Shown piece by piece: positions 4,896 through 9,694 of a DNA stretch of 64,000 bases. The position numbers were made by a program, and so were the translations under genes. The DNA lies in NCBI GenBank assembly GCA_019694875.1, contig JAIBBC010000001.1:248001-312000 (forward strand), written 5' to 3'. Below the pieces are notes generated by a model. It made no database searches. It was not told where the DNA came from and saw only the letters and a list, made by a program, of their open reading frames with translations. Numbering within the stretch: the first letter of the stretch is position 1; every line of letters starts with the position of its first letter. Origin of the DNA: Cyclobacteriaceae bacterium. GTDB taxonomy: Bacteria > Bacteroidota > Bacteroidia > Cytophagales > Cyclobacteriaceae.

Positions 4896-5330
4896 TTAGA
4901 TTTTAGCTTTTGCAATGGCTTCAAGCATCAGTGACTTCATCTTTTCAGCCGCTTCCACCTTGCCCTTCATGTACTGCTGATAGGCGTTCAGGTCGGTTGT
5001 ATCCTGTATCGGCCGCAGGCGGTTATCGTGCATCCAGTCCATCATTGATTTTTCGGCAGAGTCGATCAAATGAATACGCGCCTCGAAGTCGGCTTTTGTT
5101 TCTGGCGAAAGTGAGGCCGGGCTTGCCAGCGTGTCTTTCAGATTCTGCTTAAGACGATAGAGTTCGTCCATTTTGGGCATCACTTCATCGTGAATGTCCA
5201 TTGCGTGGCTGTACAATGCTTTGCTTGCAACTTGCAAACTATCGTTGGAACCAGAGCTTTCATTGGTGGATTTGCCGCAGCCTGAAAGCACAATCAAGGC
5301 TAAAAACAGCGATTTTATGTAATTTTTCAT
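4896..5330 (-). CDS. Small helical lipoprotein of unknown function
   Basis: The 144-residue product has a lipoprotein signal peptide with lipobox LSGC at about residues 15-18, a Ser/Asn-rich linker, then a helical, charged region (HDEVMPKMDELYRLKQNLKD). Similar short lipoproteins in Bacteroidota are sometimes labelled viral A-type inclusion protein, a name with no functional meaning. It is probably anchored in the periplasm or outer membrane. It is a separate unit from gcvT downstream and divergent from the aromatic operon leader. Confidence 0.75.
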   Translation of the reverse strand: MKNYIKSLFLALIVLSGCGKSTNESSGSNDSLQVASKALYSHAMDIHDEVMPKMDELYRLKQNLKDTLASPASLSPETKADFEARIHLIDSAEKSMMDWMHDNRLRPIQDTTDLNAYQQYMKGKVEAAEKMKSLMLEAIAKAKI

Positions 5331-5430: not shown

Positions 5431-5462
5431 TTGCACGTTGGGTTAAAATGATTCTATCTTTA
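5431..5462 (+). promoter_or_regulatory. Candidate promoter of the aromatic amino acid operon
   Basis: TATCTTTA at 5455-5462 is one base off the Bacteroidota -7 consensus TAnnTTTG. A TTG at 5431-5433 lies 21 bases upstream, fitting the -33 element. Transcription would start near 5468, about a dozen bases before the leader-peptide ATG at 5481. Confidence 0.5.
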
Positions 5463-5480
5463 TGCGATAAGAAAAGGTAC

Positions 5481-5567
5481 ATGAAGCTCAGCCACTCATT
5501 CTTTTACTTTTGGTACTTCTATTTTAAGACCCGGGCGGGACTTAGAAGAGCGGAGTGTTGTTGCTGA
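5481..5567 (+). CDS. Aromatic leader peptide (attenuation peptide)
   Basis: A 28-codon frame runs from ATG 5481 to TGA 5565-5567. It encodes nine consecutive aromatic residues, FFYFWYFYF, at codons 7-15 (5499-5525): five Phe, three Tyr and one Trp. Such a run is the hallmark of a ribosome-mediated attenuation leader peptide. Immediately after the last aromatic codon begins a set of competing RNA hairpins, and 58 bases after the stop is pheA, so the peptide would sense charged tRNA-Phe and tRNA-Tyr (perhaps tRNA-Trp). A longer in-frame start at 5343 exists, but it lies upstream of the likely promoter and is probably not used. The C-terminal part (RRAECCC) has no evident role. Confidence 0.88.
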   Translation: MKLSHSFFYFWYFYFKTRAGLRRAECCC

Positions 5568-5615
5568 ACTAAACGATACAAGAACTCAAAAGAAGTCCCG
5601 GAAAAACCGGGACTT
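5526..5615 (+). promoter_or_regulatory. Transcription attenuator with alternative hairpins
   Basis: Four segments can be drawn. Segment 1 (AAGACCC, 5526-5532) pairs with segment 2 (GGGACTT, 5537-5543) with one A-A mismatch. Segment 2 (CGGGACTT, 5536-5543) is perfectly complementary to segment 3 (AAGTCCCG, 5593-5600). Segment 3 also pairs with segment 4 (5607-5615) to form the terminator. Segment 1 begins at the first base after the aromatic codon run, so a ribosome stalled on Phe or Tyr codons would cover it, free segment 2 to pair with 3, and block termination. When aromatic amino acids are abundant the 1:2 and 3:4 hairpins form and transcription stops. This is read directly from base pairing; function is inferred. 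Confidence 0.82.
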
Positions 5616-5624
5616 TTTGTTTTT
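5593..5624 (+). terminator. Intrinsic terminator of the attenuator
   Basis: AAGTCCCGG (5593-5601) pairs perfectly with CCGGGACTT (5607-5615) around an A5 loop, followed by a T-rich run to 5624. The pheA ATG starts at the very next base, 5625, so the terminator's U tract is also the 5' flank of the pheA start codon. Confidence 0.92.
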
Positions 5625-6464
5625 ATGGCAAAGAAGAAAAAATTAAAGGTTGCTATCCAGGGCATCGCCACCAGCTTTCATGAAGTGGCAGCGCTTACGT
5701 ATTTCGATCAGCCGATTGAAACAATCGAATGCCTCTCGTTTCACAAACTATGTGAAGCGTTGAAAAGCGGGAAGGCCGATGTTGCCGTTATGGCAATCGA
5801 AAACTCCATTGCCGGAAGTATCCTCCCGAATTATTTTCTTTTGCAGGATTATCACTTCAGCATCGTAGGTGAATTGTACCTGCCCATTCACATGCACCTG
5901 CTGGCCTTGCCGGGGGTGAAGCTCGCAGACATCACTTCGATCGAATCGCATCCGATGGCAATCCGTCAGTGCTCGGAATTTTTGTTCTCGTTAAAAGGAG
6001 TGGAAATCCGCGAAAGCGATGATACTGCCGTTTCCGCAAAACGTGTTAAAGACTTCGGTCTGAAAGATACTGCGGCCATTGCCAATGAGTACGCTGCCAA
6101 AAAATTCGGTCTCAACATTCTGGAGAAGCGAATTGAAACGAACAAGAAAAACTTCACACGCTTCCTGATCCTTAACCGAAAAGCCGGTGTTAACGCAGAA
6201 AGCAATAAAGCCTCATTGAGCTTTGAAGTAGCCAACCACGTTGGCAGCCTGGCCGATGCACTAACTACCTTCAAAGAACACAGGATCAATCTTTCGAAGA
6301 TTCAATCGATACCCATTATCGGCCGCCCGAGTGAATATTCCATTCACGTAGATGTAGAATGGAAAAACAGAAGGAGCTACGACAGTGCCGTACGTGATGT
6401 TTTACGGCAAGTAAAGAACCTGAGCGTTTTGGGAGAGTACAAGAAAGCGCAGATCAAATTTTAG
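5625..6464 (+). CDS. pheA: Prephenate dehydratase
   Basis: The 279-residue enzyme converts prephenate to phenylpyruvate, the committed step to phenylalanine. The dehydratase domain covers about residues 7-185, with AVMAIENSIAGSI near 55-67 and the catalytic FTRFLIL motif (TRF) near 177. An ACT domain follows (about 193-270, SLSFEVANHVGSLADAL then IQSIPIIGRPSEY), which in the family binds phenylalanine for feedback inhibition. There is no fused chorismate mutase; that activity is supplied by the last gene of the operon. The start lies directly after the attenuator terminator, so expression should respond to aromatic amino acid supply. Confidence 0.97.
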   Translation: MAKKKKLKVAIQGIATSFHEVAALTYFDQPIETIECLSFHKLCEALKSGKADVAVMAIENSIAGSILPNYFLLQDYHFSIVGELYLPIHMHLLALPGVKLADITSIESHPMAIRQCSEFLFSLKGVEIRESDDTAVSAKRVKDFGLKDTAAIANEYAAKKFGLNILEKRIETNKKNFTRFLILNRKAGVNAESNKASLSFEVANHVGSLADALTTFKEHRINLSKIQSIPIIGRPSEYSIHVDVEWKNRRSYDSAVRDVLRQVKNLSVLGEYKKAQIKF

Positions 6465-6467
6465 GGT

Positions 6468-7658
6468 ATGATACAAACAGCAAAACGTATACAGGCGGTA
6501 GAAGAATATTACTTCAGCAGGAAGCTGGCAGAAGTACGCAGTTTGGACACACCGGAACATCGCGTGATCAACCTGGGAATCGGAAGCCCGGACATGGCAC
6601 CGGCACCGTCCGCGATCAACGCATTAATTGAATCAGCAAACAATCCGGCCAATCACGGCTACCAGAATTACAAAGGCATTCCGCAATTGCGGAAAGGTAT
6701 TGCCGATTTCTACCAGCGCATCTATCAGGTTCAATTGGATGCCGAGACGATGATTCTTCCGCTGATGGGATCGAAAGAAGGCATCATGCATATTTCAATG
6801 GCGTTTGTAAATGAAGGCGATGAAATTCTGATTCCGGACCCAGGCTATCCTACGTATTCATCGGTCGCAAACCTCGTGGGCGGAAAAATCAAAACGTATG
6901 CATTGAAAGAGGAGCTGAAGTGGGGAATTGATATTGATGCGCTCCGCAAAACCGATCTTTCAAAAGTAAAAATCATGTGGGTGAATTTCCCGCACATGCC
7001 CACCGGAAGAATTGCTTCTGCAGACGAGCTGAAGGAACTGGTTGATCTTGCGCGTAAGAATAATTTTCTGATTGTTAACGACAACCCGTACAGCCTCATT
7101 CTGAACGATGAACCAATGAGTATTCTTTCCGTGCCGGGCGCTGAAGACGTTGCACTGGAATTAAACTCGCTGAGCAAATCACACAACATGGCGGGCTGGC
7201 GTATCGGCTGGGTTGCGGGCAAGAAAGAATATATCGATGCCGTGCTGAAAGTAAAAAGCAACATGGATTCGGGCATGTTTCTCGGATTGCAACATGCGGC
7301 CGTTGAGGCGCTTCAAAGCACAAGAGAATGGTTCACTGAACTCAACAAAATTTATGTTGAACGAAGAGCTGCTGCTCACAAAATTCTCGATGTACTCGGG
7401 TGTTCTTACGAATCAAAACAGTCGGGATTGTTCGTTTGGGCAAAGGTTCCCGCTGCCATTGCTGACGTTGAAAAATTCATCGATGAAGTTCTGTACGGAA
7501 CAAAAGTTTTCATCACTCCGGGTTTCATTTTTGGAGAAGCGGGAAGACGATACATCCGGATTTCATTGTGCAGTCCCGTTGAAAAATTAAAGGAAGCGTG
7601 CGATCGTATCGAAAAATTTGTTCACACCAAAGCTAAACTCCAAACCGAAAAAGCATGA
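6468..7658 (+). CDS. Class I PLP-dependent aminotransferase (aromatic/aspartate type)
   Basis: The 396-residue product is a fold-type I aminotransferase. The PLP lysine lies in SLSKSHNMAGWRIGW near residue 237, with NDNPYSLI (Asn and Tyr contacts to PLP) near 204-211 and the substrate-carboxylate Arg near the C-terminal end (RYIRISLC). Its place between pheA and tyrA suggests that it transaminates phenylpyruvate and 4-hydroxyphenylpyruvate, or prephenate to arogenate, though the family also includes LL-diaminopimelate and alanine aminotransferases. It lies 3 bases after pheA and overlaps tyrA by four bases (ATGA). Confidence 0.9.
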   Translation: MIQTAKRIQAVEEYYFSRKLAEVRSLDTPEHRVINLGIGSPDMAPAPSAINALIESANNPANHGYQNYKGIPQLRKGIADFYQRIYQVQLDAETMILPLMGSKEGIMHISMAFVNEGDEILIPDPGYPTYSSVANLVGGKIKTYALKEELKWGIDIDALRKTDLSKVKIMWVNFPHMPTGRIASADELKELVDLARKNNFLIVNDNPYSLILNDEPMSILSVPGAEDVALELNSLSKSHNMAGWRIGWVAGKKEYIDAVLKVKSNMDSGMFLGLQHAAVEALQSTREWFTELNKIYVERRAAAHKILDVLGCSYESKQSGLFVWAKVPAAIADVEKFIDEVLYGTKVFITPGFIFGEAGRRYIRISLCSPVEKLKEACDRIEKFVHTKAKLQTEKA

Positions 7659-8533
7659 AAACGACCATCATCGGTTTAGGATTAATTGGCGGCTCAATTG
7701 CCATCGACTTAAGGAAGTCGGGCATTGCAACTGAGCTCACAGGTATTGATTTGAGTAAAGATCATGCTGAAAAGGCGCTTGAACTTAACCTGGTTGACGC
7801 CATTGATACGGAAGGCAAATCGATTTCCACGGCTGATCTGATTGTGATTGCTATCCCGGTTAGCGTACTCAGCCAGCTTCTGCCCAGCATTCTTGATTCG
7901 GTAAAAAAAGATGCTGTAGTAGTCGACACTGGCTCAACAAAAACTGCGATTTGCAAAGTGGTTTCAAGTCATAAAAACCGCGGGCAATTTGTGGCAGCTC
8001 ACCCGATTGCGGGTACAGAGAACTCCGGCCCAACTGCGGCTTTCTCCGGATTGTTTCAAAACAAAACGAACATTATTTGTGAGAAGGAAAAGTCGTCAGG
8101 CCATGCGTTAACCGTTGCTGAAAAAATATTTGCAGCGCTTCGTATGAACACCATTTACATGGATGCAGCTGAGCACGACAAGCATGTAGCCTACGTGTCG
8201 CACCTGTCGCACGTAAGTTCATTCTTACTCGGACAAACTGTGTTAGACATTGAACGCGATGAGAAAAATATTTTTGCGTTGGCGGGAAGCGGTTTCTCCT
8301 CCACAGTGCGCCTGGCAAAAAGCTCGCCCGACATGTGGGCACCGATTTTTGAACAAAATGCCGAGCATCTGAGTCAGGCGCTGCTGGAATACATCATGCA
8401 CTTGCAACGTTTTCAGTATCATTTGATGAAGCGTGATGTAACCGAACTTCACAAGATCATGAAAGATGCAAACCGCATTCGCGAAGTGCTTAACGGAATT
8501 GAACTGAAAACGAAAACAACTGAAAATAAATAA
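7655..8533 (+). CDS. tyrA: Prephenate dehydrogenase
   Basis: The 292-residue enzyme oxidises and decarboxylates prephenate to 4-hydroxyphenylpyruvate with NAD(P)+, on the way to tyrosine. It shows an N-terminal Rossmann motif GLGLIGGSIA at residues 6-15, the active-site stretch HPIAGTENSGP near 113-123 and the helical-domain motif HDKHVAYVSHLSH near 168-180. There is no ACT or chorismate mutase domain, so feedback control in this protein is not evident. The ATG overlaps the aminotransferase stop (ATGA), indicating coupled translation. Confidence 0.96.
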   Translation: MKTTIIGLGLIGGSIAIDLRKSGIATELTGIDLSKDHAEKALELNLVDAIDTEGKSISTADLIVIAIPVSVLSQLLPSILDSVKKDAVVVDTGSTKTAICKVVSSHKNRGQFVAAHPIAGTENSGPTAAFSGLFQNKTNIICEKEKSSGHALTVAEKIFAALRMNTIYMDAAEHDKHVAYVSHLSHVSSFLLGQTVLDIERDEKNIFALAGSGFSSTVRLAKSSPDMWAPIFEQNAEHLSQALLEYIMHLQRFQYHLMKRDVTELHKIMKDANRIREVLNGIELKTKTTENK

Positions 8534-8542
8534 CTTTGTCAT

Positions 8543-9646
8543 ATGAAGAAGGAATTGGAGCTTGTAGCAATGTCAACCTGGTTACCGACAAACGGTTTAC
8601 CAGCCGTGATCAGCGGACCGTGCAGTGCAGAAACAGAAAGTCAAACTATCGCTACCGCGAAACAACTTGCAGCAACCGGTAAGGTAAATGCGTTGCGGGC
8701 CGGAATCTGGAAACCCAGAACACGTCCCGGACAATATGAAGGTGCCGGTGCTGAAGGATTGAACTGGTTGATTCAGGCGAAAAAAGAAACCGGCCTTCCG
8801 GTAACAACCGAAGTTGCGAACGCGGCACACGTGGAAGCCTGCCTGAAAGCAGGCGTGGATATTCTTTGGGTGGGCGCACGGACAACGGTGAACCCGTTCT
8901 CCGTTCAGGAAATTGCCGACTCGTTAAAAGGCGTTGACATTCCGGTTATGGTGAAGAACCCGGTTAACCCGGATCTCGAACTTTGGATTGGAGCGCTGGA
9001 GCGATTGAACAAAGCGGGCATTAAAAAACTGGCTGCGATTCACCGCGGATTCTCATCGTTTGACAAAGGACCTTTCCGCAATGCTCCGATGTGGGATTTG
9101 GCAATCGAGTTGAAAACACGCATTCCCGAACTTGATATCATCTGCGACCCAAGCCACATTGCCGGTAACCGTGATCTGATTGCGTTGATCAGCCAGAAAG
9201 CGATTGACCTTAACATGAGCGGCCTGATGATTGAAAGTCATATCAATCCCGATGCTGCTTGGAGCGATGCGAAGCAACAGGTAACACCGGCTGTGTTGGG
9301 TAACATCATTGAAGGACTCGTGGCCCGTAAGCCATCAACCGATAACAAAACATTCAAAGACACACTGGCGGTGTTGCGTGAGCAGATCGACCAGCTGGAT
9401 GATGAGATCATGCAGAAGCTTGCCAAGCGAATGACGATCTCGGAGAAAATCGGTCAGTACAAAAAAGAAAATAACGTCACCATCCTGCAGGTTGGCCGCT
9501 GGGAAGAAATCATAGCCACCCGTTTGGCGATGAGCATGGCGATGGGCTTAAGCGAAGAGTTTATTAAAGACATGCTGAAGCTGATTCACAACGAATCAAT
9601 TCAGATCCAGACAAAAGTGATGAATAAAGAGGGCGAGCGGGTTTAG
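8543..9646 (+). CDS. Bifunctional DAHP synthase / chorismate mutase type II
   Basis: The 367-residue fusion catalyses the first step of the shikimate pathway (PEP + erythrose 4-phosphate to DAHP) and the branch step chorismate to prephenate. The N-terminal domain (about 1-265) is the KdsA-like type I-beta synthase: ISGPCSAE, LRAGIWKPRTRP, EVANAAHVEACLKAGVDILWVGART and the DPSHIAGNR metal site. The C-terminal domain (about 275-360) is an AroQ helical mutase with LREQIDQLDDEIMQKLAKRM and a KIGQYKKEN helix. In related fusions the mutase domain lets prephenate inhibit the synthase. It is the last gene of the operon, before a strong terminator. Confidence 0.95.
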   Translation: MKKELELVAMSTWLPTNGLPAVISGPCSAETESQTIATAKQLAATGKVNALRAGIWKPRTRPGQYEGAGAEGLNWLIQAKKETGLPVTTEVANAAHVEACLKAGVDILWVGARTTVNPFSVQEIADSLKGVDIPVMVKNPVNPDLELWIGALERLNKAGIKKLAAIHRGFSSFDKGPFRNAPMWDLAIELKTRIPELDIICDPSHIAGNRDLIALISQKAIDLNMSGLMIESHINPDAAWSDAKQQVTPAVLGNIIEGLVARKPSTDNKTFKDTLAVLREQIDQLDDEIMQKLAKRMTISEKIGQYKKENNVTILQVGRWEEIIATRLAMSMAMGLSEEFIKDMLKLIHNESIQIQTKVMNKEGERV

Positions 9647-9665
9647 TGAAACTCATTCAAAAATG

Positions 9666-9694
9666 AAGAGCAGGTATTCCCTGCTCTTTTTTTT
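9666..9694 (+). terminator. Intrinsic terminator of the aromatic operon
   Basis: AAGAGCAGG (9666-9674) pairs with CCTGCTCTT (9680-9688) around a 5-base loop, followed by a run of T to 9694. It lies 19 bases after the last gene. Confidence 0.93.

Follow-up and report, generated by a model that had tools for sequence, protein, structure and literature searches.

A stretch of 64,000 nucleotides from a Cyclobacteriaceae bacterium (hereafter the window) carries, directly upstream of pheA, an element that is very probably a ribosome-dependent transcription attenuator of a Phe/Tyr operon (pheA, an aminotransferase gene, tyrA and a DAHP synthase-chorismate mutase gene). The leader frame, its aromatic codon run, the mutually exclusive 2:3 and 3:4 pairings, their spacing and the operon itself are apparent from the sequence and its comparison with relatives. 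Three features of a classical attenuator were found together: a leader reading frame with control codons, an intrinsic terminator before the first gene, and an antiterminator (2:3) competing with the terminator (3:4). An earlier note on this DNA had read the element in the same way, and the conservation of both the aromatic run and the alternative pairing in relatives supports that reading. The positions of the features are given in the table.

Table. Features of the putative attenuator and of the operon that it precedes (positions in the window).
Feature	Position	Strand	Evidence and remarks
Promoter-like stretch: TTG (5431-5433) and TATCTTTA (5455-5462)	5431..5462	+	putative; weakly supported
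Leader peptide ORF, MKLSHSFFYFWYFYFKTRAGLRRAECCC, 28 codons plus stop	5481..5567	+	frame listing; kept 5' of pheA in relatives
Control codons F F Y F W Y F Y F, nine aromatic	5499..5525	+	read directly from the letters
Segment 1, AAGACCC, able to pair with segment 2	5526..5532	+	predicted fold; weakly supported
Segment 2, CGGGACTT, 5' strand of antiterminator	5536..5543	+	pairing scores in relatives
Helix E, 5' strand, GAG (partner 5585-5587)	5548..5550	+	alignment and fold
Hairpin D within antiterminator (arms 5555-5562 and 5572-5579)	5555..5579	+	fold; mean z
Helix E, 3' strand, CTC	5585..5587	+	alignment and fold
Segment 3, AAGTCCCG, 3' strand of antiterminator and 5' arm of terminator	5593..5600	+	pairing scores, alignment
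Intrinsic terminator, stem-loop 5590-5618 and T-rich tail to 5624	5590..5624	+	12 pairs, covariation
pheA, prephenate dehydratase	5625..6464	+	best family 189 bits, below its cut-off of 219
PLP-dependent aminotransferase	6468..7658	+	25 families listed, all below cut-offs
tyrA, prephenate dehydrogenase	7655..8533	+	NF006307 above cut-off
DAHP synthase with C-terminal chorismate mutase domain	8543..9646	+	families below cut-offs
Terminator-like hairpin 3' of last operon gene	9665..9689	+	hairpin finding

The 28-codon leader and its nine consecutive aromatic codons, as first described, proved exact in coordinates and codons. Translation would begin at the ATG at 5481, which is conserved in relatives; the list of open reading frames embeds the leader as the end of a longer TTG-started frame. 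Among ATG-started frames of 8 to 60 codons, the nine-codon run occurs in only one place in the window, where it is seen from two nested ATGs, and the runner-up has six aromatic codons. A Shine-Dalgarno-like motif lies upstream of only 1 of 134 leaders. The -7 box of Bacteroidota, quoted as TAnnTTTG in PMC9723704, resembles TATCTTTA in the window, and 20 of 84 leaders have TANNTTTR at a distance of 5-50 nt 5' of their start, where shuffles would give 9.7. The gene family matches confirm the joint Phe/Tyr operon proposed previously; its products are Phe and Tyr, and DAHP synthase also feeds the common pathway. The intergenic region is shared with a divergent gene on the minus strand (4896-5330) for a small protein that reads as lipoprotein-like and has no NCBIfam match. 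Tandem repeats were looked for and none was found. In the genome that contains the window, searches for runs of four His codons (32 matches forward, 24 reverse) or six Phe/Tyr codons (11 forward and 7 reverse, versus 8 and 20 in the reversed control) were too unspecific.

The attribution of the DNA to Bacteroidota was correct: its nearest relatives are Cyclobacteriaceae MAGs, and the nearest named ones belong to Chryseolinea, Chryseosolibacter, Dawidia and Ohtaekwangia. The conserved aromatic frame that the earlier note proposed to look for upstream of pheA is indeed present in relatives. It was found in all 17 searched genomes of the same genus; one of the pheA searches behind this count retained 30 loci, 21 passing the leader threshold and nine, with at most 51% protein identity, failing it, and matches in 20 further genomes were left out. 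A pheA protein search of the named collection retained 80 loci, 79 of them evaluable (L110 had no upstream sequence), and an aromatic leader precedes pheA in 77 of these 79 when at least six aromatic residues in 10 are required and in 74 when at least seven are; it is absent upstream of pheA at L108 and L111. The named relatives with a leader are Cytophagales (e.g. Chryseolinea, Ohtaekwangia, Chryseosolibacter and Dawidia), many MAGs and two Solitalea.

A survey of the phylum based on pheA gave an estimate of range not tied to near relatives. pheA was matched in 138 of 158 genomes, and with a threshold of six aromatic residues in 10 within 600 nt, a leader was detected at 31 of the 34 pheA loci tested in the same class (one of its 35 genomes with a match, G508, was left out) and at 4 of 37 tested in other classes, the latter being hand-picked, mostly from the upper ranks, among 103. 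At two of the three misses within the class (G070 and G085), the leader instead lies 5' of the DAHP synthase-chorismate mutase gene (L164 and L162). Searches with an RNA model (R1) yielded matches in 51 of 390 genomes of the order and 46 of 395 of the phylum, counts that probably understate the range, as strict filters lose weak matches. All 56 loci found with this model have an aromatic frame, 53 ahead of pheA and three ahead of the DAHP synthase-chorismate mutase gene. In a hand-picked set of 18 genomes, 16 had a pheA match, six with a leader within 650 nt and 10 without; five of these 10 have an R1 match elsewhere (G367, G370, G398, G414 and G089). Given its presence at 31 of 34 tested loci of the class, the hints already in print and a Trp counterpart in Rfam, the device is not exceptional within the phylum.

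In two of these genomes, G370 and G414 (loci L281 and L282), the leader lies between two DAHP synthase-chorismate mutase genes, directly ahead of the second, and pheA and the aminotransferase gene are located further downstream of the gene that it heads; the pair of intervening genes in G370 resembles aroB and aroA on reading. From the gene order, the device stays with the head of the rearranged aromatic operon in these two genomes rather than with pheA. In a genus belonging to another family, each of the three genomes examined (G048, G065 and G081) has two aromatic leaders in series ahead of a single operon. The pairing of segment 2 with the terminator differs between the members of each pair: at L026, the first leader reached p≤0.05, with its partner in the terminator loop, and the second had p 0.3; at L200, the first had p 0.075 and the second p≤0.05; at L201, no terminator was seen by the finder for the first, and the second had p≤0.05. 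Tandem attenuators have been described for the mgtCBR operon (PMC3641672).

The composition of the run bears on how it would be sensed. Phe, Tyr and Trp account for 1069 of the 1166 run residues in 136 leaders; Phe and Tyr are both present in all 136 leader peptides, and Trp lies inside the run in 37. The kind of residue is thus kept, but its order is not: there are 78 distinct strings of the last eight residues among the 136 leaders, and three different orders in the window's own genus. Constancy of kind with variability of order fits sensing by decoding rather than by a fixed peptide. This distinction is relevant to nascent-peptide arrest of the TnaC type, in which the order of the critical residues is conserved. 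A peptide of this kind, perhaps with a free amino acid as ligand, would stall the ribosome in the exit tunnel, an effect that free Trp has during translation of the TnaC leader (PMC8429421), and the same geometry would work once the ribosome had stopped; nevertheless, the 78 strings and the three orders within one genus depart from the conserved order of such arrest leaders and make this explanation quite improbable.

Segment 2 is perfectly complementary to segment 3, the first arm of the terminator, exactly as the earlier note had claimed. In the window alone (L002), this complementarity has a p value of 0.02, and most of the evidential weight for the 2:3 pairing is carried by the relatives. 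Scored against spacer shuffles, 81 of 85 leaders had a match of segment 2 to the terminator arm at p≤0.05, and 57 of 85 had one at p≤0.01, these leaders being those left from 102 unique upstream regions after removal of 12 without a leader and five without a terminator by that finder. A broader second set, for which partners in the loop were accepted too, gave corresponding numbers of 44 and 29 of 57; this set had 59 entries (45 model hits, three loci found through pheA, six leaders from the genomes with two in series and the five that lacked a terminator in the first set), 57 of which were scored, with a laxer finder. The paired segments are of unrelated sequence: CGGGACTT:AAGTCCCG in the window, GGGGGATT:AATCCCCC in L092, AGCGAGGCTTT:AAAGCCTCGTT in L170, CGGGGCTT:AAGCCCCG in L085, TCGAATCGG:CCGATTCGA in L149 and GAAACGAGGTT:AGCCTCGTTTT in L207.

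When terminator arms were swapped among 34 leaders with distinct arms, the mean score was 18.8 for the own arm and 14.6 (sd 0.48) for swapped arms, and none of 5000 permutations reached the own value. As the 2:3 pairs are built into R1, the pairing of the loci found with it (L120-L175) is partly built in, and the test was repeated on 24 leaders not found by the model, with the same outcome (18.9 versus 15.0; 0 of 5000). The own arm was the top-ranked partner in only 10 of the 34, the median number of foreign arms that scored higher was one, and many of the terminator arms are alike among these leaders. L026 and L062, for which the finder picked wrong hairpins, were excluded from the 85-leader set in the swap, fold-stability and geometry analyses.

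The covariation that the earlier note suggested seeking in the three alternative stems was recovered to different extents. It is strong in the terminator, for which a close alignment of 81 sequences (A2) has 99.5% of cells paired and two-sided changes in six of nine pairs. For the 2:3 pairing, it is supported by the swap test and only in part by A2: the 2:3 and E helices beat 500 of 500 shuffles in cells paired, in cells changed on both sides and in score, but the number of pairs changed on both sides was reached by 451 of 500 shuffles and that of pair types by 249 of 500, and slides of -2 and +1 gave 21 and 32 two-sided cells, versus 13 for the true register. The third stem, the hairpin said to begin at the base directly after the aromatic run, is the weakest part of the earlier reading; it is predicted to fold in the window (5526-5543, AAG.CCC with GGG.CTT and a single A-A mismatch), at a position that would suit masking by a stalled ribosome; its CCC:GGG pairs are conserved in the alignment of 81 sequences, in which covariation is absent, and its fold stability has a mean z of -0.6 in 135 leaders. 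The region from segment 2 to the terminator, in which hairpin D lies, folds on average more stably than its shuffles, with a mean z of -1.28 in 136 leaders. Hairpin D and helix E (5548-5587 in the window) recur in relatives with changing sequence.

These data also bear on the notion that a constitutive intergenic terminator is accompanied by a fortuitous U-rich frame, with segment 2 kept for another reason, such as mRNA stability. Phe codons do arise easily in U-rich stretches, and terminators are common; however, Leu is absent from all 1166 run residues even though TTA and TTG are one change away from Phe codons, the longest aromatic runs in 40 dinucleotide shuffles of the window had three to six codons (at least seven in none), and segments 2, 3 and 4 agree across unrelated sequences. 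Such a coincidence is highly improbable.

For the attenuator, we infer the promoter, the translation of the leader, the stalling and the read-through, together with which amino acid would count most, and envisage the following course. RNA polymerase would start just upstream, with a ribosome following on the leader. Should charged Phe-tRNA or Tyr-tRNA (or Trp-tRNA, where a Trp codon is present) be scarce, the ribosome would wait in the aromatic run, leaving segment 2 free to pair with segment 3 in a structure that encloses helix E and hairpin D; the terminator would then be blocked and the operon read. With charged tRNA plentiful, the ribosome would pass segment 2 to the stop codon, segments 3 and 4 would pair, and transcription would end before pheA, the ATG of which lies 6 nt beyond the terminator stem-loop.

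Predicted folding energies and spacing are compatible with such a course. Once the polymerase has completed segment 3, and with segment 2 free, the predicted fold is 2:3 with E and D, at -20.7 kcal/mol; in the complete RNA, with segment 4 present, the terminator (-26.4 kcal/mol) is favoured over the structure with 2:3 forced (-22.0 kcal/mol). An RNA ending at segment 3 still folds 2:3 when segment 1 is free, so termination should need the ribosome or kinetics. On this modelling, it is unlikely that the 1:2 hairpin alone enforces termination in the window's genome, and the translating ribosome crossing segment 2 is the likelier agent. The distance from the last aromatic codon to the start of segment 2 is 8-11 nt in 114 of 136 leaders, with a mode of 10. 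Given the usual ribosome footprint, a ribosome whose A site holds the last control codon would extend about as far as this, and a stall anywhere in the run should therefore keep segment 2 accessible. In the window, the end of the stop codon lies 24 nt 3' of segment 2, too far for a ribosome halted there to cover that segment itself. The stop codon is variable in position, ending 2-28 nt past segment 2 in 131 of 136 leaders and 2-10 nt past it in 63 of 136.

We regard as evenly balanced the broader proposal that the leader acts throughout the class as a multi-aromatic OR-gate, in which a shortage of Phe or of Tyr, or of Trp in some clades, would each halt the ribosome on this one leader and open its one switch. 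If this is true, transcription and translation would be closely coupled at the leader throughout a class in which such leaders have no Shine-Dalgarno sites, and one genus would have put two attenuators in series to sharpen the response. A class-wide example in Bacteroidota would provide a direct test of ribosome-polymerase coupling without Shine-Dalgarno sites, and the natural series pair offers material for studying how attenuators combine. The element also defines an RNA family absent from Rfam 15 and would add an aromatic multi-amino-acid sensor beside the branched-chain ones.

None of 4227 Rfam models, including that of the T-box, reached its gathering score in the window, and a single tRNA was the only such match in the loci of 20 relatives. 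The 2:3/3:4 switch part alone would be compatible with any sensor, but its control by a different one for tRNA or a metabolite, such as a T-box, riboswitch or RNA-binding protein, is extremely improbable, given this absence of Rfam families and a conserved sensor part that is a reading frame of Phe/Tyr codons.

The known system closest in design comes from the same phylum. The Bacteroid-trp RNA motif (RF01692), listed by Weinberg in 2010 (PMC2864571), matched 13 of 148 phylum genomes (11 above the cut-off), all of family f26, besides the control Bacteroides ihuae, and had no match in the window's genome. The 12 loci examined (L188-L199) have a short leader with a WWW run, followed by a segment that, judged by eye, matches the terminator arm before the T run. 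Bacteroid-trp is thus itself probably an attenuator, given WWW leaders of like design, but it would sense Trp only, whereas the window leader mixes Phe, Tyr and Trp codons. For the same kind of operon, pheA-hisHb-aroA-aroQ-tyrA of Bacteroides thetaiotaomicron, a putative attenuator from a prediction database is given in Table 7 of a 2005 paper (PMC1173090), the accessible text of which presents no leader peptide, aromatic run or species comparison. Structured 5' elements upstream of pheA and hisG, with clues to leader-peptide attenuation, were reported for Flavobacterium in 2021 (PMC9723704); the pheA element of F. psychrophilum shares gene and phylum with ours, but the main text describes no peptide, mixed codons or alternative pairing. 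Short frames reminiscent of leader peptides are also mentioned for B. thetaiotaomicron (PMC7366714). According to the accessible texts, no conserved RNA structure was found to precede Phe or Tyr operons in Actinobacteria (PMC1262725), and in 2010 leader-peptide systems had been shown only in Proteobacteria and Actinobacteria, ermC and the authors' own case in Firmicutes excepted (PMC2965389); general background is provided by PMC4833913 and PMC1183508. The literature searched, chiefly openly accessible main texts and abstracts, held no description of a mixed aromatic leader ahead of pheA.

The enterobacterial pheL leader (Phe_leader, RF01859) is likewise an attenuator with a Phe-rich leader 5' of pheA, but the window element scored 25.3 bits with that model, against a gathering score of 55. 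The pheL leader contains Phe codons only and controls pheA alone; in contrast, the window leader mixes Phe, Tyr and Trp codons and heads an operon for Phe and Tyr. The ilvGMEDA and thrABC leaders of enterobacteria each combine, in one leader, control codons for several end products of a branched pathway. They are multivalent, like the window leader, but for branched-chain amino acids and Thr/Ile rather than aromatic ones. The kind of attenuation itself, the hints in print (PMC1173090, PMC9723704) and the Trp counterpart Bacteroid-trp were thus already known; added here are the leader with mixed Phe and Tyr (sometimes also Trp) codons, the range and covariation of this element, and its occurrence as a pair in series.
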